DNA from: an uncultured Eubacteriales bacterium
GTDB taxonomy: Bacteria > Bacillota > Clostridia > Peptostreptococcales > Anaerovoracaceae
Length of the DNA stretch: 54,329 bases
Assembly (NCBI GenBank): GCA_900315485.1
Contig: OMZI01000019.1
Location: forward strand, 1-54,329
Direction: 5' to 3'
How positions within the stretch are numbered: position 1 is the stretch's first letter; each line of letters begins with the position of its first letter. Position numbers and translations under genes: made by a program. This document shows positions 7,821-53,578 of the stretch, in pieces. A model generated the notes under the pieces. The model saw only the letters and a list, made by a program, of their open reading frames with translations, did not search any database and was not told the DNA's origin.

Positions 7821-8340
7821 GTGATATTTTCCATTACCGGCCAGTGCAACTACAACTGCCTGCACTGCTCGGTGAATGCGCCGGAAGCACCACTCGGCGA
7901 GTTTTCGTTTGAAAGGATTGAGGAGCTTCTCGATGAGATGAAGGACTGCGGCCTCAAGAACATAGTTCTGATCGGAGGAGAGCCGCTTGTCAGAAGAGAC
8001 TTCATGCAGATCGTCGATGCGATCCTGCAGAGGGGAATGTTTGTGGTTCAGATATTCACGAACGGATCGCTGGTGAATGATGCTTTGCTGGACGAACTTG
8101 ATAAAAGAAATATCTCACCGACATTCATGATCAGCTTTGACGGTGTCGGCTATCATGACATAATGCGTGGAGTCACTGACTGTGTACCCGCCTGTTGAAA
8201 GCGGCCTGTGGAAAGACAGGAGATCTGCTCGGCTATGATCCGCAGATGTGCTATTTCTTTGAGCACGGTTTCCCTGAGAAGTTCCGGGAAGCGATACGGA
8301 GAGGCGAGGCAAAGCGGACTGAGAATATGTCGCTGCTGGA
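7821..8340 (+). pseudogene. Broken radical SAM protein gene
   Basis: A GTG start after GGAGGGG opens a frame with I-T-G-Q-C-N-Y-N-C-L-H-C (CX3CX2C), the G-G-E-P-L motif, a T-N-G-S strand and I-S-F-D-G. This is half of a radical SAM barrel. It stops at 8198 after only 125 codons. Another reading frame, shifted by one base, then runs G-Y-D-P-Q-M-C-Y-F-F-E-H-G-F-P-E-K-F-R and resembles the missing C-terminal part. The middle of the barrel is gone, so a deletion with a frameshift is the simplest account. The exact 3' end is unclear. Confidence 0.65.
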
Positions 8341-8376: not shown

Positions 8377-9252
8377 TTACTGCCTTCGCAGCATGTTCAT
8401 GGTCTCCTCTGAAGGCGGCGGCGCTGCCAGCATAGCAATTTTGCGGTGTATAGCCTGTGCGTCAAAATTGTTCTCATCTGCACCGAATGTAAGCAGCAGA
8501 TTTGACTCCGGAAAGAATCCTATCTCGGCAAGCTGGTCCCAGCGCGTTACAGCATCAGTACGGTAACGGCTTCGCTTTGCCAAATTGCTGTGGAACCAGT
8601 TTCCCAGATGTTCAAATATCTTTGGGGTCATTGTGAACACGTCCAGTGCTGTGAAATCCGGATGAAGCAACTCGCCGTTGGCTTTATAAGGTAATTCAAA
8701 AATACTTGGCACGTTATAGATGAAGAATGCCTCGTGATGGATGCACTCAGCGCGGGACCGCATCGGGGTACCATCGAATGCCGTGACCTTCAACCCGGCA
8801 GGATCGAAAACCGGAAGCTTTTCCTTGAGAGCCAACTGTTCTGTCTTCCATTTATACACTTCAGGTTCTATGCGCAGGAACGGGTCATTTCCCGGCAGCA
8901 TATATGTCGAAGAAAGGAGCTCGTTGAAATCGGCAGCATTTGTCTTCCGGTAGATTCGCAGAAAATCTTCCATAACCCCGATGTTTGTTTCTATTACTTC
9001 TATGGCTTTCTTGTAAAGATGATGCGTACGGATCCCTCTGATTTCAGGATGCGTGTCGTCGCCAACATAAACATACCGCGCCTGCCCCGGAAACTTGACT
9101 GCATAAAAACTTTTGCCCTTTCTTACAGCACACCTCTTCATATATGCTCCATCAAAGGACTGGCTCTCAGAAAGATTCTTGATATATCTGTCTCTTAATT
9201 TATACTGCAGGTCTAGATCGTACTCTACTGCAGATTTGCATGAGTATCTCAT
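8377..9252 (-). CDS. PD-(D/E)XK nuclease-like protein, family copy A
   Basis: A 291-residue protein with an AGGAG site before the ATG at 9252. The N-terminal half has a basic helical stretch, then a beta segment A-R-Y-V-Y-V-G-D-D-T-H-P-E and a helix (H-H-L-Y-K-K-A-I-E-V-I-E). The C-terminal half carries E169 in S-R-A-E, D199 in H-P-D-F and E214-H215 in F-E-H-L-G, then N-L-L-L-T-F. The spacing E-30-D-15-E matches copies at 34026 (E-30-D-16-E) and 52784 (E-30-D-15-E). This order, with E-H in place of E-x-K, resembles nuclease domains attached to some superfamily 1 helicases. The start codon lies about 290 bases from a 52-bp tandem array. Function is not known. Confidence 0.6.
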   Translation of the reverse strand: MRYSCKSAVEYDLDLQYKLRDRYIKNLSESQSFDGAYMKRCAVRKGKSFYAVKFPGQARYVYVGDDTHPEIRGIRTHHLYKKAIEVIETNIGVMEDFLRIYRKTNAADFNELLSSTYMLPGNDPFLRIEPEVYKWKTEQLALKEKLPVFDPAGLKVTAFDGTPMRSRAECIHHEAFFIYNVPSIFELPYKANGELLHPDFTALDVFTMTPKIFEHLGNWFHSNLAKRSRYRTDAVTRWDQLAEIGFFPESNLLLTFGADENNFDAQAIHRKIAMLAAPPPSEETMNMLRRQ

Positions 9253-9540: not shown

Positions 9541-9955
9541 TATTGCACATACGATGCGCGAAAGGAGGATGTTGCGCATAGTGCATACTGAGTATGGCAA
9601 AAGTGATGCTCGAGAGGCGGCTGGTGCGTACGGTGCAAACTGAGTATGGCAAAAGTGATGCGCGAAAGGCGGATGTTGCGCATGGTGCATACTGAGTATG
9701 GCAAAAGTGATGCGCGAAAGGCGGATGTTGCGCATAGTGCATACTGAGTATGGCAAAAGTGATGCGCGAAAGGCGGATGTTGCGCATGGTGCAAACTGAG
9801 TATGGCAAAAGTGATGCGCGAAAGGCGGACGTTGCGCATGGTGCATACTGAGTATGGCAAAAGTGATGCGCGAAAGGCGGACGTTGCGCATGGTGCATAC
9901 TGAGTATGGCAAAAGTGATGCGTGAAGGGGGCGCGTTGCGCACAGTGCATACTTT
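9541..9955. repeat. Tandem array, exact 52-bp period, about eight units
   Basis: The segment AGTATGGC recurs at 9591, 9643, 9695, 9747, 9799, 9851 and 9903, exactly 52 bases apart, with degenerate units at each end. Each unit has TTGCGCAT and ATGCGCGA half-sites bounding a 38-bp element, with CATACT-G-AGTATG as a second palindrome inside. There are no unique spacers and units are nearly identical, so it is not a CRISPR array. Long open frames on the minus strand arise because the repeat lacks stops; 52 is not a multiple of three, so they are not convincing genes. The rest of 9253-10027 holds no gene I can see. Confidence 0.9.
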
Positions 9956-21404: not shown

Positions 21405-21812
21405 GTGGTGCTAATGATGAGTGCAGTGACATTCGCCGCTGACCTAGAGACAGCTGTGACAGCGGATGATGCACTTCAAGAGGTTGCAGAAGTTAATACC
21501 GAAAAAGTGTCATTTGATCGCAATTCAGGAAGCGTGGAGATTGTAATAACTGCGGAAGGTATTGATGGTGATGGGAACTTTTGTATAAAAACGCCACGGA
21601 CAAATATGACGCTGTCAGGTGGAATAATTGAAGACTGTAACATGAAAAGTGATTCAAAAAAGCTTCCAAGCATTGCTGTATACGGATATGCAAAAAAGAA
21701 TTCTTGGAAGGGTAGCACATTGGAAATCGGCATAGGGTGTGAGGCAACTGGAAAAATAAAGACATATAAAGGAACTTGCACAGTCTATAAGGCTGATGGT
21801 ATAACAAAATAG
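21405..21812 (+). CDS. Probable exported protein with shortened signal peptide
   Basis: A 135-residue frame beginning at GTG, with M-S-A-V-T-F-A-A before the mature-looking D-L-E-T-A. This is a signal-peptide h-region and cleavage site, but the basic n-region is absent. The remainder is a beta-rich single domain (V-S-F-D-R-N-S-G-S-V-E-I-V-I, C-I-K-T-P-R, G-Y-A-K-K-N-S-W-K-G). The frame is open further upstream without a start. It lies just right of the first element's end, so its true 5' end may have been replaced by the insertion. Function unknown. Confidence 0.5.
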   Translation: MVLMMSAVTFAADLETAVTADDALQEVAEVNTEKVSFDRNSGSVEIVITAEGIDGDGNFCIKTPRTNMTLSGGIIEDCNMKSDSKKLPSIAVYGYAKKNSWKGSTLEIGIGCEATGKIKTYKGTCTVYKADGITK

Positions 21813-21994
21813 CTTCGAAGACTTTTTTGATGACAAATAATTCTGGCACGAAATATATGGTGAGACAGTATTTTTTTGGAATGGGGAAAAGCAAATCCTG
21901 CAAAGTGAAACTTAGCAACTTAACAGTTATAGACATATACGGCAGGAGCTCATCTATGACTCCAATATGGACAGGTGTGTTCAGGAAGTAAATA

Positions 21995-33366: not shown

Positions 33367-33430
33367 GTCATTGTGATGTATGGCATGCGAGCCATTTCAG
33401 ACAAACAAGGTTATAGACTTTATGCCATTG

Positions 33431-33842
33431 TGGCGTAAAGCAGAAAGAATTCTTAATAGTTACGCCAACAGGATGATGGTATATGGAGCAGACAATTATG
33501 CGGATTGGCGTAAAAGCAGTGATTAAGGGAATTCCTACGCCACACAATCACTGCTTTTTTCTATTCTCCGACCGGTTTGATGGCGTAACAGACAGAGAGG
33601 ACCTTCCAAAAACGCCATCAAATACACAGAAACACGACGATGACACGGTACGTGATGGCGTAACGGACAGGGAGAAGCTACCAAAAACGCCATCAAATAC
33701 ACAGAAACACGACGAAGACACGGTTCTTGTTGGCGTAAATGAGACAGAGATTGAGACAAAAACGCCAACTCGCATCCCGTTTTGCCCGCATGATACGAAT
33801 CATGTTGGCGTAAAAATGGCAACGGTAGGGTAAGTTACGCCA
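33431..33842. repeat. Array of six 37-bp inverted-repeat elements, exact 75-bp period
   Basis: TGGCGTAA occurs at 33431, 33506, 33581, 33656, 33731 and 33806, each exactly 75 bases apart. Each is matched by an inverted half-site, (T)TACGCCA or AACGCCA, so that every element spans exactly 37 bases. The ~21-base interiors and the 38-base segments between elements differ, except that units 3 and 4 are closely similar. The layout recalls a CRISPR array but what is conserved is the pair of half-sites. A plus-strand frame (33483-33833) runs through as a 25-residue repeat because 75 is a multiple of three. The array ends 183 bases before gene 34026. Confidence 0.9.
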
Positions 33843-34025
33843 TCAGAAGAATGTATTGTTTTGCACTTTTTTACAAGGGTGATTTTATTGCAGGAATTCA
33901 TGCGCCGCTTGTTTGTGGTATTTTGCGATTCCGTCTATCATTTAAGGACAACAGTAAGGGCGGTGGGATAGCCGTGAATACAATGGCTATACAGATAAGG
34001 ACAATGGAGGAAAGGAGGCGGGATC

Positions 34026-34865
34026 ATGGATGCATCAACGATTCAGGTCCTGAAAAAGGAGCTTAAACTTATTGAAATGAACAAATCTGCTCTGGGGAAA
34101 AAGAAAGAAGAACTGAAGATGTATGAGGGGATGGTTCTCATACCATCAGTCAAGAGTTATGGGCGGGTGTACTACTATACAATTGATCCGAAGAGCGGCA
34201 GGCGGGTGTATCTCGGAGGCGAGGAGCACCCGGATGTGCAGAATATCAAGGCACTGCATCATATTAATCTGTCGATGAAGCTGATGGAGAATGATTCCTC
34301 GCTCATTGTGCCTGCTCTGGATAAGGCTGCGGATCACAGCCCCGATGCGGTGGAGCAGATGCTGCCAAAAGTGTACAGGAACAGCAGACTAAGTATGGGA
34401 AGTGAGCCGGACGTGAGAGCGGCAAAATGGAAGAAGGATAAGGAGGCGTTCAAGGCGGCCTATCTGGAAAAATACCCGGACAAATATCCTGAAACGCTTA
34501 CATATCAGAGGTGGACCGGGGAATGGATGCGGTCAAAGTCCGAGGGGTCGATTGCAGACATTCTGGACATGAACGGGCTGACGTGGATCTATGAATTGCC
34601 ACATAAGTGTAACGGGTACTGGCTGCTGTCGGACTTTACAGTCCTGTCGCCGCTGGATCTCCTGGCTGAAATAATTATCGAACACGCTGGGCGGATGGAT
34701 CTTGAATCCTACAGGAATAAATACATTTTCTCTCTTGAGCACTATATGAAGGAAGGATATCGCCCAAACATCAATCTCTTCTTCACTTTTGATAATCTGG
34801 ACCAGACCTTCAGTCAGATGCCGGTGCAGAGTATACTGGAGAACTGGCTGAGAGCCGGAGCGTAG
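34026..34865 (+). CDS. PD-(D/E)XK nuclease-like protein, family copy B
   Basis: A 279-residue protein preceded by GGAAAGGAGG. The first ~30 residues are a Lys/Glu coiled coil. A beta segment follows (Y-Y-Y-T-I-D-P-K-S-G-R-R-V-Y-L-G-G-E-E-H-P-D) and a helix with H-H-I-N. The C-terminal part has E173 in S-K-S-E-G, D203 in S-D-F and E219-H220 in I-E-H-A-G, then N-L-F-F-T-F. It shares this signature and domain order with 8377-9252 and 52784-53578, although overall identity is low. The first motif is S-D-F here where the other two have P-D-F. A terminator follows, and a 75-bp periodic array lies just upstream. Confidence 0.6.
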   Translation: MDASTIQVLKKELKLIEMNKSALGKKKEELKMYEGMVLIPSVKSYGRVYYYTIDPKSGRRVYLGGEEHPDVQNIKALHHINLSMKLMENDSSLIVPALDKAADHSPDAVEQMLPKVYRNSRLSMGSEPDVRAAKWKKDKEAFKAAYLEKYPDKYPETLTYQRWTGEWMRSKSEGSIADILDMNGLTWIYELPHKCNGYWLLSDFTVLSPLDLLAEIIIEHAGRMDLESYRNKYIFSLEHYMKEGYRPNINLFFTFDNLDQTFSQMPVQSILENWLRAGA

Positions 34866-34880
34866 GTGAAGGCTTGGCAT

Positions 34881-34909
34881 AAGAGCAAGGTGTAAAGCCT
34901 TGCTCTTTT
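34881..34909 (+). terminator. Rho-independent terminator after nuclease-like gene B
   Basis: AAGAGCAAGG (34881-34890) pairs with CCTTGCTCTT (34898-34907), followed by T. The gene therefore forms a single-gene unit. The remaining bases to 35161 show no gene I trust. Confidence 0.8.
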
Positions 34910-35161
34910 AAGGTAGCTTTAAGCCTGGTGAGTTAATCTAGTAAATGATGAGAATTGAGGCCCACAGGGTCCGGATCGAAGAGTGCCTCATAGAGTGTGA
35001 AAAGAGGAGTGACGCAGAATGCGAAGAGAAGAAGGACGCAGAGATTGTTGAATAATGGGCGTGCTTTTGGTAAAATCCTATTCTTGTGGGGCAGTTAATG
35101 AATGACCTGCGGTATGTGCGGGGCATAATGAATATATGTAATTGAAAGGACTTGTAAGAAA

Positions 35162-36092: not shown

Positions 36093-39000
36093 ATGAGAGA
36101 ACTTAATAAAAACAGAATTCACGGTCTTGCGAAGATGATGCTGACACTCACGCTTGCACTTATTGTTGCCGCAGGAATGGGTGGCGTTTTATTTTCAGAC
36201 GTTGCTTTTGCTGTCAATCCCGGGACGACAAGTATGGAGACGACCGGGACGGAAGTGACCGGGACAGAAACGACTGGTGCAGCTGTGTCTGCAGAAACAG
36301 CAGAGACTGGGGCAGTCGATTCAGCAGATAAAGAAGCAGCAGAAGCAGTTGATGCATCAGATTCAGCAGAAGCTAAGGCGGTTGAGACACCAGATACAGC
36401 GGAGGTCAAAACAGAGACCAAAGCAGGGCCGTCTTCAGATGCTTTGGGGGTAGCTGCCGATAGCGGAGTGCTTGCAGCCGGCCCTGATCAGATGGAAAAC
36501 TGTGATTTTCAGGTAACAGGTGCTGCCGGGTCTTATTCATTTGATGAAAACACCGGAGTTCTGACTGTCACCGGAGATGTCACTATATCCATGAAAGACG
36601 GAAAAGACAGCACTTCTCAGAGGATCGTGGTGGCGGACAATGCAAAGGTGACGATCGACGGACTGAAGATAACTGCTGAAGGCGGGCCTGCGGTAAAGGT
36701 AAACTCTGGAGTAAAAGCGACACTGACTGTCACCGGAACCAACGATGTAACAGGCGCTTCCGGATATGCAGGTGTAGAGTCAGGATGGGAGCAGGGAAAC
36801 CCTGCTGACCTTACGATCGAGGGAAAAGGCACCCTCAATGCGACCGGGGGCGACAAGTCAGCAGGCATCGGTGCATCTTACACAAATAAGGACTCAGGCG
36901 GAAAAAGCATTTCATCATATTGCGGCAACATAACGGTCAACAGCGGCACTATCAAAGCATCCGGAACTAACGGCGGTGCGGGAATCGGCAGCGCCAACAA
37001 CAATAATCGTAATGCCGACGGAACCTCCAATACTTCCGCCTCTTATAAAATGCTAACAACTAAATATGAGGATGGAGGCGTAAGGCCGGATATCGGTACC
37101 ATAACTATCAACGGCGGAGATATAACTGCGACCGGATCCAATGGCGCAGGTATCGGCGGCGGCAATCATTCAGAAAGCGGCAAGATCACGATCAATAACG
37201 GCAGCATCAATGCCAGTGGAGCATCGGGCATAGGATGCGGCACAGGAAGTCATGAGTATGAGAAAAATGATAAAGGCGGAAAGGGTCCCGGATACTACTA
37301 TACTGAGATAGAGATAAACGGCGGATCCATAACTGCAAAAGCGACCGGAGAGGATAACTGGGGCGGTGCAGGCATCGGAGGCGGAGGCTACTGTGATACG
37401 GATATCAAGATCACAGGTGGAGACATAACCGCGTACGGCGGCAGCTGCGGGGCAAATCACAACTCGGTACACCACGGCGGAGCAGGTATTGGCGGCGGAT
37501 ATGAATCACATGCAGATATCGAGATCAGCGGAGGTAATATCAAAGCGTATGTAGGAGATAACAGTGCGGCGGCTGCCATCGGCTCAGGAGGAACTCCGAA
37601 CAGCAACAAGGACAGAGGGAAAGACGGGAAGAATGGCCGGTCAACAGAATTCGGGATCGTGCATAATACGAGCACATCAGTCACGATCACCGGCGGCACG
37701 GTAGTTGCCGACGCGACCAAGGGACGCGGAGGCTCCGGCATCGGAGGCGGAACAAGCGCAGATAAAGTTTCAGTCACTATCGCCGGCGGCACGGTCACGG
37801 CGCTCGGTGCAAGATCCTCAGAAGCAGATAAGCTTGGCGGAGCCGGCATAGGAAGCGGGCTGTACGGAAAGGATGCTCAGGCTGAAGGCATGAACAAGCC
37901 GGACAGCAGCAGCTATCATGTGGAAACAGCTGTCAGTGTCAGTATCACGGGAGGTGATGTGACAGCTGTCGGCGGCTGGGGTGCTGCGGGAATAGGATCC
38001 GGAGCAAGAAACAAAATCGCGGATACTATTAATATAGATGCCAGCAAAGCAGACATTGAAGCATATGCAGACGGAACCAAGTTTGCAATAGATACCCGTG
38101 ATCTCAAACCGGACGGATCGACAGAAAGCTATACGGACGGACGGACAGTCCAGGGAAATATTCTCCAGGGAACCTTCGTACATGAATACGTATCTGAAGA
38201 CGGAGTCGACCAGGGAACTGAGGGCATCAAAGAAATACAAATCATAAATGATGCTGATGACAGTGACAAGGTCGTTCTGACAGGAATGGACACCTTTGGT
38301 CTCGACGGATACAGATCTTTTGCATCAAATGTCAGCTCGCCTGGAGATTACAACGTATATACTCAAGTGGACGAGATTGCTCATGGTGAGGGCCGTTACT
38401 TCAGCAAATGCAAAGACGACGTTCGTACGAAGGAAGATGTCGATACGAATCAGGATGTCGTCGAGAGAGGCGTAAAATACAGAGTCACAGGCAACTCTCT
38501 TTCAGATAATTTCTACCTCTTCCCGGTCAAAGCGGTAATCGTAACCAAGACCGTTAACTATGATGGGGACAAAACCGGACTGACCGGCGATGTGTATTTT
38601 TCACTCAGAAGATATACGACTGATGGTCAGGGGCGAAAAACATACGCCGATGATTTTGAGAAGAGAGAGAATAAGCAGTGGATCGAGTCCATCCACATAG
38701 AAAACGGAAATCCGAAAACCAGGGCGGAGTTCATCTGTGTAGATGAAGCATTCTATGACGTATGGGAAGTCACTAAGGATGGGACACCGGTCGATGTGAC
38801 AAAGATGGATGTCCGGCTCGGAGATGCAAAGCTGGTGAAAATCGAGACCAGACACGATGAACGTACCGCGGACTGTATTCAGATTGATAAAGAACACTGG
38901 ACAGACAGCCTTGAAGTGATCAATTACTACGAGGCGCCGCCGGATGAGGACGTTCCATCTGAGGATCCGGATACCGATCATGATCCTGACCGGGACCCTT

Positions 39001-39125
39001 CGTCAGGTAAGCCGAAGACCGGCGATGAGTCACACCTGACTTTATACATTGCGCTGCTGACTGCAGCAGCCATTGCAGGTGCAGCGGTGCTGGTGATCCG
39101 CAGGCGTAGCGGTGACGACGAATAA
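36093..39125 (+). CDS. Large cell-surface protein with Gly-rich beta-helix repeats and sortase-type anchor
   Basis: A 1010-residue surface protein. A signal peptide (residues ~15-40, ending A-F-A-V) is followed by a Thr/Glu/Ala linker. From ~130 to ~690, repeats of the type I-T-I-N-G-G-D-I-T-A-T-G...G-A-G-I-G-G-G recur about a dozen times, which should stack as a right-handed beta-helix. A prealbumin-like wall domain follows (T-K-T-V-N-Y-D-G-D-K-T-G-L-T-G-D-V-Y-F-S-L). The C terminus has a Pro/Asp/Glu stretch, P-K-T-G-D-E, a membrane segment and R-R-R, a sortase anchor in which Lys precedes P-K-T-G. No sortase gene lies in the window. Start ATG 36093 has only a distant AAGGAA. Confidence 0.85.
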   Translation: MRELNKNRIHGLAKMMLTLTLALIVAAGMGGVLFSDVAFAVNPGTTSMETTGTEVTGTETTGAAVSAETAETGAVDSADKEAAEAVDASDSAEAKAVETPDTAEVKTETKAGPSSDALGVAADSGVLAAGPDQMENCDFQVTGAAGSYSFDENTGVLTVTGDVTISMKDGKDSTSQRIVVADNAKVTIDGLKITAEGGPAVKVNSGVKATLTVTGTNDVTGASGYAGVESGWEQGNPADLTIEGKGTLNATGGDKSAGIGASYTNKDSGGKSISSYCGNITVNSGTIKASGTNGGAGIGSANNNNRNADGTSNTSASYKMLTTKYEDGGVRPDIGTITINGGDITATGSNGAGIGGGNHSESGKITINNGSINASGASGIGCGTGSHEYEKNDKGGKGPGYYYTEIEINGGSITAKATGEDNWGGAGIGGGGYCDTDIKITGGDITAYGGSCGANHNSVHHGGAGIGGGYESHADIEISGGNIKAYVGDNSAAAAIGSGGTPNSNKDRGKDGKNGRSTEFGIVHNTSTSVTITGGTVVADATKGRGGSGIGGGTSADKVSVTIAGGTVTALGARSSEADKLGGAGIGSGLYGKDAQAEGMNKPDSSSYHVETAVSVSITGGDVTAVGGWGAAGIGSGARNKIADTINIDASKADIEAYADGTKFAIDTRDLKPDGSTESYTDGRTVQGNILQGTFVHEYVSEDGVDQGTEGIKEIQIINDADDSDKVVLTGMDTFGLDGYRSFASNVSSPGDYNVYTQVDEIAHGEGRYFSKCKDDVRTKEDVDTNQDVVERGVKYRVTGNSLSDNFYLFPVKAVIVTKTVNYDGDKTGLTGDVYFSLRRYTTDGQGRKTYADDFEKRENKQWIESIHIENGNPKTRAEFICVDEAFYDVWEVTKDGTPVDVTKMDVRLGDAKLVKIETRHDERTADCIQIDKEHWTDSLEVINYYEAPPDEDVPSEDPDTDHDPDRDPSSGKPKTGDESHLTLYIALLTAAAIAGAAVLVIRRRSGDDE

Positions 39126-47660: not shown

Positions 47661-47697
47661 TGGCGTAAAGTCGGGCGTAACGTCTGATTTTACGCCA
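47661..47697. repeat. Solitary copy of the 37-bp TGGCGTAA inverted-repeat element
   Basis: TGGCGTAA (47661-47668) and TTACGCCA (47690-47697) bound a 37-base element, exactly the length of those in the array at 33431. The interior is unrelated. No nuclease-like gene adjoins it, so the element is dispersed as well as arrayed. Confidence 0.8.
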
Positions 47698-52332: not shown

Positions 52333-52460
52333 CAGTGTATGGCTATGCCGGCCGTAAGCTCTGTTTCTGACGCACAATAAACCCGTTTACGCGCGCATTT
52401 GCCAATTCATTACTTCGTATGCTCAATTCTTCATAAGCGAAAGAGGAGTTTTATGAAATT

Positions 52461-52500
52461 GTGTACATTTAAAAATAATTTTGCCTAAAAATGAACACAA
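52461..52500. repeat. 40-bp inverted-repeat element, first copy at locus C
   Basis: TGTGTACATTT (52461-52471) and AAATGAACACA (52490-52500) are inverted half-sites with one mismatch, bounding a 40-base element. A second copy lies at 52715. The stretch 52333-52714 otherwise shows no gene. Confidence 0.75.
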
Positions 52501-52714: not shown

Positions 52715-52755
52715 TGTGTACATTTTTCGATGATTTTATTTTAAAATGAACAACA
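52715..52755. repeat. Inverted-repeat element, second copy, abutting nuclease-like gene C
   Basis: TGTGTACATTT (52715-52725) and AAATGAACA (52744-52752) repeat the pattern of 52461. A TATACT promoter-like box at 52708 lies immediately before, and the coding start is 28 bases after, so the element sits over the expected transcription start. A single half-site, AAATGAACA, also occurs after the gene at 53600. Confidence 0.75.
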
Positions 52756-52783: not shown

Positions 52784-53578
52784 ATGACGCACAGAAAAGA
52801 ACTGGAACGGATCCGGAAAATACTGCTTGAAAGAAAGGGCGCGCTTGAGAATGAATTGAGAACGCTGCCGGAAGGAACTTTGTATTGCTCCAGGCGCAAA
52901 GATTGGTGGGTGTATTACCAGCTGCTGCCGAAGAAGGGCAACAGGAAGAAGGAGAAGCGGATCGGGATCTCGCGCGACACGGAGCAGATATTCGGGCTGG
53001 TGCGGAAGAGGTATATCACGAAGGCGCTGGGACGGATAGATAAGGACATTAAGGTCGTGGATATGGCGCTCAGGCACTACACTGATATTGATGAGGCGTC
53101 TGTGATGGCAAAATTCCTGGCAAAGCACCCGGAGCTGAGCGATGGGATCTATCATGGGCGGCAGCGCGATGAGGCGTGGGCGGATGACTATGAAAGGCAG
53201 CAGGATTTCTATGCGGAGAAGCGCAAGCACACCGCAGCTGACGGAACATCGATGCTGTCCAAGAATGAGATGTACATTGCGGCGAGACTTGAGTTCTACG
53301 GGATACCTTATAGATATGAAGATTCCGTGGCGCACCCGGATGTGGACCGCATTCCTGATTTCAAGATCAGAAGGCCGCGCGACGGCAAGATTATTTACTG
53401 GGAGCATCTCGGCCTGACAGGTGATGACGGATACATGAAAGGGAATGAGCTGAAACTCACAGAGTACGAGAACTCGGATATCGTTCCATGGGACAACCTG
53501 ATCATAACCTATGACACGCCTGACGGGGGGATCGATGGCAAAATCATAGATGCTATGATACACGGATGGCTTCTGTAA
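52784..53578 (+). CDS. PD-(D/E)XK nuclease-like protein, family copy C
   Basis: A 264-residue protein preceded by GGAGGG. The N terminus is a basic coiled coil (R-K-E-L-E-R-I-R-K-I-L-L-E-R-K). A beta segment follows (W-W-V-Y-Y-Q...K-R-I-G-I-S), then helices, then the core: E162 in S-K-N-E-M-Y, D192 in I-P-D-F, E207-H208 in W-E-H-L-G, and N-L-I-I-T-Y. Spacing of the three acidic residues matches copies at 8377 and 34026. The P-D-F...W-E-H-L-G pattern is typical of DNA-cleaving domains that have H in place of K. Among the three copies this has the clearest nuclease-like core. Confidence 0.68.
   Translation: MTHRKELERIRKILLERKGALENELRTLPEGTLYCSRRKDWWVYYQLLPKKGNRKKEKRIGISRDTEQIFGLVRKRYITKALGRIDKDIKVVDMALRHYTDIDEASVMAKFLAKHPELSDGIYHGRQRDEAWADDYERQQDFYAEKRKHTAADGTSMLSKNEMYIAARLEFYGIPYRYEDSVAHPDVDRIPDFKIRRPRDGKIIYWEHLGLTGDDGYMKGNELKLTEYENSDIVPWDNLIITYDTPDGGIDGKIIDAMIHGWLL

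Follow-up and report, generated by a model that had tools for sequence, protein, structure and literature searches.

Nuclease-like genes preceded by their own inverted-repeat elements

We studied a 54,329 nt stretch of DNA from an uncultured Eubacteriales bacterium (contig OMZI01000019.1, the whole of which is called the window below) carrying three genes, A, B and C, of a family of nuclease-like proteins, each gene lying next to short elements with inverted half-sites. We lean towards reading these proteins as sequence-specific DNA-binding nucleases, each of which would recognise its own element, with gene and array forming a quickly re-targeted, REPIN-like unit. All three are intact open reading frames (ORFs), located at 8377-9252 on the negative strand (A, encoding P0001, 291 aa) and at 34026-34865 and 52784-53578 on the positive strand (B, P0002, 279 aa; C, P0003, 264 aa); the genome they come from contains seven genes of the family. 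The initial annotation of the window had described three proteins of low similarity with a common motif, each encoded downstream of a different kind of element, and both points held: the proteins were 20-23% identical over their whole length and shared the pattern E-x29-D-F-x13/14-E-H-x-G, and locus-specific inverted half-sites were found upstream of A (seven units), B (six) and C (two).

The A array (9574-9923) consists of units of the form GCGCAT-N26-ATGCGC repeated with a period of 52 bp, four of them exact and three with one or two mismatches. A search of the whole window for this pattern at three mismatches found 32 occurrences against 33 expected, i.e., not above chance, so the evidence for the A array is its tandem order and not the count. 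The elements of the B array (33431-33842), of the TGGCGTAA-N21-TTACGCCA type, start at 33431, 33506, 33581, 33656, 33731 and 33806, a period of exactly 75 bp; seven matches were found in the window against 1.3 expected, a count reached by none of 100 shuffles, and two adjacent copies were also alike in their interiors (89% over 75 bp). The seventh B element, solitary and absent from the initial annotation, lies at 47661-47697, flanked by one gene of the PTA_PTB (phosphate acetyl/butyryl transferase) family and one for an EamA transporter. Upstream of C, a distal element TGTGTACATTT..AAATGAACACA with one mismatch (52460-52499) and a proximal one with three mismatches (52715-52754) were found, against none expected in the window. 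The proximal copy has a TATACT promoter-like box directly upstream and ends 29 bp before the start codon of gene C, an operator-like position in which it might serve as an operator.

Distribution of the family and its arrays

A profile of the seven proteins found relatives in 33 of 60 related genomes (33 of the 36 of the same genus and none of the 24 others), and a wider profile had matches in 39 of 291 genomes from the class. A single scan over named genomes confirmed 477 stretches as relatives, of which 80 were kept. The named relatives came from rumen and gut metagenome-assembled genomes (MAGs) named Mogibacterium or Clostridiales, from Lachnospiraceae and other Bacillota, and from a few cultured strains belonging to Pseudobutyrivibrio and Lachnoclostridium.

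A strict first finder, requiring exact 7-base half-sites, detected arrays upstream of 31/87 members and downstream of 10/87, and in none of 89 gene bodies or 435 shuffles. The main finder allowed no more than one mismatch in its 8-base half-sites, limited the element length to 32-46 and called an array where one element occurred twice or more within 1 kb; it was fixed on a first set of 89 members and run unchanged on a second set of 85, none of which was in the first. Upstream arrays were found at 49/87 members of the first set and 39/80 of the second, and downstream arrays at 15/87 and 16/75, respectively. The control counts were as follows: 1/89 and 2/85 gene bodies, 3/261 dinucleotide shuffles in the first set and 1/240 shuffles in the second, 1/46 stretches located 2.5-3.5 kb upstream (second set), and 5/228 windows 1.5-2.5 kb away on both sides. 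An array on either side of the gene was present at 62/89 and 50/80 members, and the main finder detected arrays at six of the seven family genes in the window's genome. The co-occurrence of genes and elements, regarded from the outset as hard to ascribe to chance, thus extends to the family as a whole; most homologues adjoin an inverted-repeat element of their own, presumably the cognate one, rather than generally lacking it.

Element geometry and helical phasing

When 119 arrays were centred on their dyads, the agreement between copies was 0.75-0.95 at 10-18 bp from the dyad, with its peak at 15 bp, and remained at background (0.52-0.59) at 0-7 bp and from 22 bp outwards. The matching 8-mers and the outer length of 32-46 used by the finder already set a rough window of agreement, so the finding is that the peak is single and narrow. 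It places the half-sites about 30 bp apart, the DNA between them being free to vary.

Spacings from copy to copy clustered at 41-43, 51-53, 62-65, 72-75, 82-83, 93 and 104 bp, with stray values at, e.g., 49, 60, 66-71 and 85 bp. In the first set (58 spacings), R was 0.65 for a period of 10.5 bp, with a mean phase of -0.3 bp (p ~2e-11); in the second (70 spacings), R was 0.66, and the mean phase was -1.1 bp for a 10.5 bp period and 0.4 bp for one of 10.3 bp. With one spacing of at most 90 bp per 50%-identity protein cluster (n=53), R was 0.71 (p ~3.5e-12), and a period of 11 bp was nearly as good in that range (0.69). Note that these p-values presume independence, which is only partly true for related loci. 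Spacing by whole turns sets successive copies on the same side of the double helix and, together with the single half-site common to each array and the lack of compensatory pairs, favours duplex DNA over RNA as the molecule recognised. The family consists of nuclease-like proteins of gut and rumen Clostridia, mostly encoded beside private, evenly phased paired sites that vary between genes, and looks like a new kind of protein-repeat partnership.

Conservation of the half-sites and their coupling to the protein

We compared all ten ortholog pairs with at least 75% protein identity and at least two upstream copies on both sides. Identical bases amounted to 398/469 in the half-sites, 325/497 in the element interiors and 1425/2320 in the remaining DNA up to 330 bp from the start; in the six pairs with an unchanged half-site, a split made afterwards, the corresponding values were 305/329, 250/363 and 928/1340. 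Half-sites are kept, and the interiors drift like the surrounding DNA.

Across 112 arrays, half-site similarity increased with protein identity (rho 0.18, reached by none of 500 permutations), the value for the interiors being 0.04. Among the 132 pairs with at least 60% identity in the nuclease part, the beta tip of the N-terminal arm (see below) was the best predictor of the half-site (rho 0.52); its correlation was 0.42 after the nuclease part was allowed for (0/500), and that of the nuclease part 0.10 after the beta tip was allowed for. In the 1244 pairs with at least 40% nuclease identity, the beta tip gave 0.45 (partial 0.28) and the nuclease part a partial value of 0.13. In 12 of 15 close pairs, conservation was lower in the beta tip than in the nuclease part.

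The clearest case was that of two loci, L114 and L213, whose flanking ORFs have synonymous divergences (dS) of 0.02 and 0.01 and whose nuclease parts differ at 2/115 residues. The strongly diverged part begins at the first element, some 250 bp ahead of the start codon, and extends to approximately codon 120; in this single case the elements and the arm lie within one exchanged stretch. The MAG that contains L114 is assigned to the same genus as the window, and L213 belongs to a genome of a different family; one of the contigs may therefore be misbinned or transferred, which leaves the comparison itself unaffected. The interpretation given in the initial annotation was supported in part, including the link it proposed between each protein and its repeat: the correlation of half-site with protein and the co-exchange at L114/L213 speak for this link, and the correlation is weak among distant pairs. 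Putative recognition of the half-site by the beta tip finds support in the correlation among closer pairs and in one exchange.

Predicted fold and active site

AlphaFold2 models of P0003 and P0002 (predicted local distance difference test, pLDDT, 89 and 91) presented an alpha-beta-beta-beta-alpha-beta core. The P0003 model matched I-Bth0305I, the nearest solved fold, as well as TnsA, VRR_NUC and a Holliday junction resolvase, and the P0002 model had the same strand order, in agreement with the PD-(D/E)XK nuclease core predicted earlier. In P0002, residues ~5-100 correspond to an N-terminal arm with a coiled coil and a beta tip, and residues ~165-279 to the C-terminal PD-(D/E)XK domain with E173, D203, E219, H220 and G222. 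The three acids did not vary in alignments of 41 and of 70 members, and in the latter the complete set E, D, E, H and G was invariant; conservation of the acids suggests that nuclease activity is probably needed.

Dispersal, loss and turnover of the elements

In the window's genome the B element is present at six places in about 26 copies, forming arrays between ordinary genes; the neighbours include what we take, from their sequences, to be purH-purD, rnfC and a cobQ-like gene. An array of seven copies was located on contig C37. The exact B pattern matched five of 40 genomes of the genus: 14 times in the window's own, seven in G348, four in G030 and once each in G001 and G008 (shorter). The reversed pattern, used as control, gave five matches in four other genomes. 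G348 has an orthologue of gene B (92% identity), and no close gene-B relative was detected in G001 (best 25%); these two genomes are 67% and 74% complete, respectively, so absence elsewhere in them is not proved. Positions 33376-35041 of the window, comprising the array and gene B, had no counterpart at the orthologous site of G001, a sister genome, except for a decayed first half-site at the join. G001 also lacks the B array beside rnfC (an alignment gap) and retains one mixed B element at purH-purD. In G348, the purH-purD array presents TGACGTA half-sites alongside an old TGGCGTA one. At the same purH-purD gap, locus L239:1033-2649 (G035:C13) has an insertion with a TnpB-like ORF.

The C element had two extra copies in the window's genome, both in relics of C-type loci. 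In these relics, L265 (C18:44243) and L266 (C31:13495), the elements and the leader are left and the gene is gone, although one relic preserves the first codons of the lost gene along with the leader; they resemble the solo ends of a lost mobile unit. For the A element, three further matches were found where the control had 0, just one of the three having the 38 bp length of the elements in the array, and the element of the family gene at C47:38558 gave two against three in the control, i.e., no excess.

A second dispersed element of about 75 bp was observed at L009:4251-4326 (C47 of the window's genome, ~21750-21825), with inverted ends, a conserved interior and 79-87% identity between most copies. 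Family genes at G000:C40, G030:C11 and G348:C129 are preceded by copies at a distance of a few hundred bases, and another copy lies beside the B array of G348:C91. This may be a cognate repeat of older date or else a miniature element without any relation to the family.

Proposed mechanism

Taking the observed fold, element geometry, phasing, half-site conservation, correlation between half-site and protein, one co-exchange and one loss in a sister genome as a basis, we propose that two protomers would meet over the element dyad, each extending its coiled-coil arm about 15 bp outward, where the basic beta tip would read one 7-8 bp half-site; the two nuclease domains would lie over the unspecific DNA between the half-sites. 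Because the copies are spaced by whole turns, adjacent dimers would occupy the same helix face and might stack or loop. Sites near the start codon would probably let the protein restrain its own expression; in 24/88 upstream arrays, the start of a copy falls 40-90 bp ahead of the presumed start codon. The nuclease would probably be held in check on the array, making occasional nicks or breaks through which arrays would expand, contract, recombine and swap specificity cassettes. Gene and array would be lost, moved and re-targeted quickly as a unit, with the sites kept mainly while the gene is present, and might constitute a self-maintaining, in this sense selfish, REPIN-like partnership built on an unrelated protein. 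More tentatively, the family may represent a new class of array-bound nuclease, with dimers side by side on one face of a private, helically phased array that would hold the nuclease poised and self-limited, the unit being re-targeted by exchange of one cassette of tip plus sites. If true, this would be a second, independent origin of a REPIN-like protein-repeat symbiosis, and a readable code would exist between beta tip and half-site.

Several observations weigh against this interpretation. At the threshold used, 27/89 and 30/80 members had no second element copy within 1 kb, and 31/162 cases presented downstream arrays, a location that autoregulation would not require. The correlation between protein and half-site was 0.07 below 40% identity, and over all 5356 pairs the beta tip was no better a predictor than the nuclease part (rho 0.19 vs 0.22, partial 0.08 vs 0.14). 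At L213 the finder detected no element pair, and the new half-sites were not cleanly readable. The active site was not strictly invariant in the automatic 89-row alignment of the first set (E 89, D 88, E 85, G 88). The (D/E)XK lysine is absent, the residue following E-H being A, L, E, F or M (7 and 15 printed rows), and the lysine of the next helix, conserved in at least 90% of 70 rows, is a serine in P0002; PD-(D/E)XK variants without the motif lysine are known. The predicted template modelling (pTM) scores of the two models, 0.52 and 0.64, make the arrangement of arm and nuclease uncertain. Of the four kinds of element searched for in the window's genome, B alone was clearly dispersed away from family genes, and G030, with four B-like elements, has a best gene-B relative of only 27% identity.

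Alternative explanations

An autoregulated transcription factor, with the elements as mere operators that allow looping and a PD-(D/E)XK fold devoid of a nuclease role, would fit the missing lysine and the copies 40-90 bp before the start, the others lying whole turns away. We nevertheless find it unlikely: E, D, E, H and G are invariant in 70 members, arrays contain up to ten copies and occur downstream as well (15/87 and 16/75), and the B arrays adjoin ordinary genes of several kinds.

A role in anti-phage defence, in which the enzyme would be stored or restrained by the array and set free by invading DNA or a phage function, seems rather improbable. The family resembles the PADLOC candidate defence proteins PDC-S68 and PDC-S69 in its C-terminal nuclease domain: all 70 members matched the PDC-S68 models (best 4.4e-38, P0002 at their C-terminal end) and 37/70 matched PDC-S69. 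Rapid change of specificity and several paralogues per genome would also suit such a role. However, the match of P0002 covers only positions 1093-1218 of a 1221-residue model, and the PDC-S68 models it matched have 1221 and 1202 residues, whereas family members mostly have 255-340. No common neighbour was found among ten ORFs around the window genes (three of them without a family match), no survey of defence islands having been made. Six long ORFs (619-952 aa; L225, L229, L230, L232, L233 and L234) in other Clostridia carry the same nuclease domain and may belong to larger candidate defence proteins; an upstream array was found at none of the four with enough upstream DNA.

Homing by a selfish gene, whose enzyme would cut alleles lacking the unit and be copied in by repair, is improbable, even though the P0003 model shares the fold of its catalytic domain with an EDxHD homing endonuclease, I-Bth0305I. 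One account (PMC3943268) describes this enzyme as dimeric, with a target nearly 60 bp long; unlike it, the family has a helix-beta-helix arm, intact site arrays beside the gene and one private half-site pair per gene. The pattern of the family is E..D..E-H-x-G, that of the homing enzymes EDxHD. The missing gene and array at the G001 orthologous site would fit homing, but the decayed half-site at the join looks like loss and not like an uninvaded site, and a homing enzyme would cut its own chromosome at the intact sites beside its gene. Note that this empty-allele evidence, which speaks against homing insertion, comes from one locus.

Type III toxin-antitoxin pairs have antitoxin RNAs, and the arrays could by analogy be transcribed hairpins bound by the protein; as RNA, the B array folds better than shuffles (z -4.5, 0/100 as good). 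We regard such an RNA-level system as very improbable given that the copies of an array share one half-site and do not vary by compensatory pairs, that whole-turn spacing is a property of duplex DNA, and that an Rfam search of the window matched a tRNA only. Chance or an annotation artefact is negligible despite the weak evidence of each short element alone and the prevalence of MAGs among the sequences, considering the controls (gene bodies, shuffles, distant windows) and a downstream array in the cultured strain Pseudobutyrivibrio xylanivorans (L203).

Relation to known protein-repeat systems

If the family consists of DNA-binding nucleases with their own elements, as we favour, it resembles the RAYT/TnpA-REP systems (REPtrons), described in the accounts cited as proteins that co-evolve with their own inverted-pair repeats and have distinct specificities (PMC8266576; PMC3116915), RAYT being a HuH enzyme acting on folded single-stranded DNA (PMC8266576). 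As far as these accounts describe them, both would comprise one protein with its own inverted-pair repeats beside the gene and a co-evolving specificity; dispersed extragenic copies, as described for REP repeats, are clear in the family for the B element. Unlike RAYT, our proteins have a PD-(D/E)XK fold; unlike REPINs, the half-sites are about 30 bp apart with free sequence between them, the arrays keep in phase with the double helix, and the B element has about 26 copies at six places. A HuH/Y1 transposase model was not found among the matches listed (25 of 26 Pfam families, 70 members, E 0.1). Given this lack of a HuH/Y1 match, the different fold and the phasing of the arrays on duplex DNA, we do not consider the family a member of RAYT/REPIN.

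Type I restriction specificity subunits exchange their recognition cassettes while the rest remains constant. The exchange at L114/L213 is similar, except that here the elements lie inside the exchanged stretch. We judge the system of gene and array to be categorically new in kind, with a putative function. A widespread unnamed family gains a fold and a likely target, and its many natural pairs of protein and half-site are material for learning a recognition code in a compact nuclease. The results also suggest that stable nuclease-repeat partnerships arose more than once in bacteria; if so, the question of why RAYT/REPIN pairs persist becomes testable in a second, unrelated system.

Neighbouring sequences in the window

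Between the B array and gene B, a segment with TTTTGCACTTTTTTACAA(G/A)GGTG was found at 33852-33896 (L249, L250, L251 and L252); it recurs at G000:C57, G348:C78, G001:C140 and G016:C145 and is perhaps a shared promoter or regulatory box. A radical-SAM frame of only 125 residues, which appears truncated or frameshifted, occupies positions 7821-8198 and ends shortly before gene A. Directly downstream of the gene B region, positions 36093-39125 encode a 1010-residue protein with a match to beta-helix repeats.
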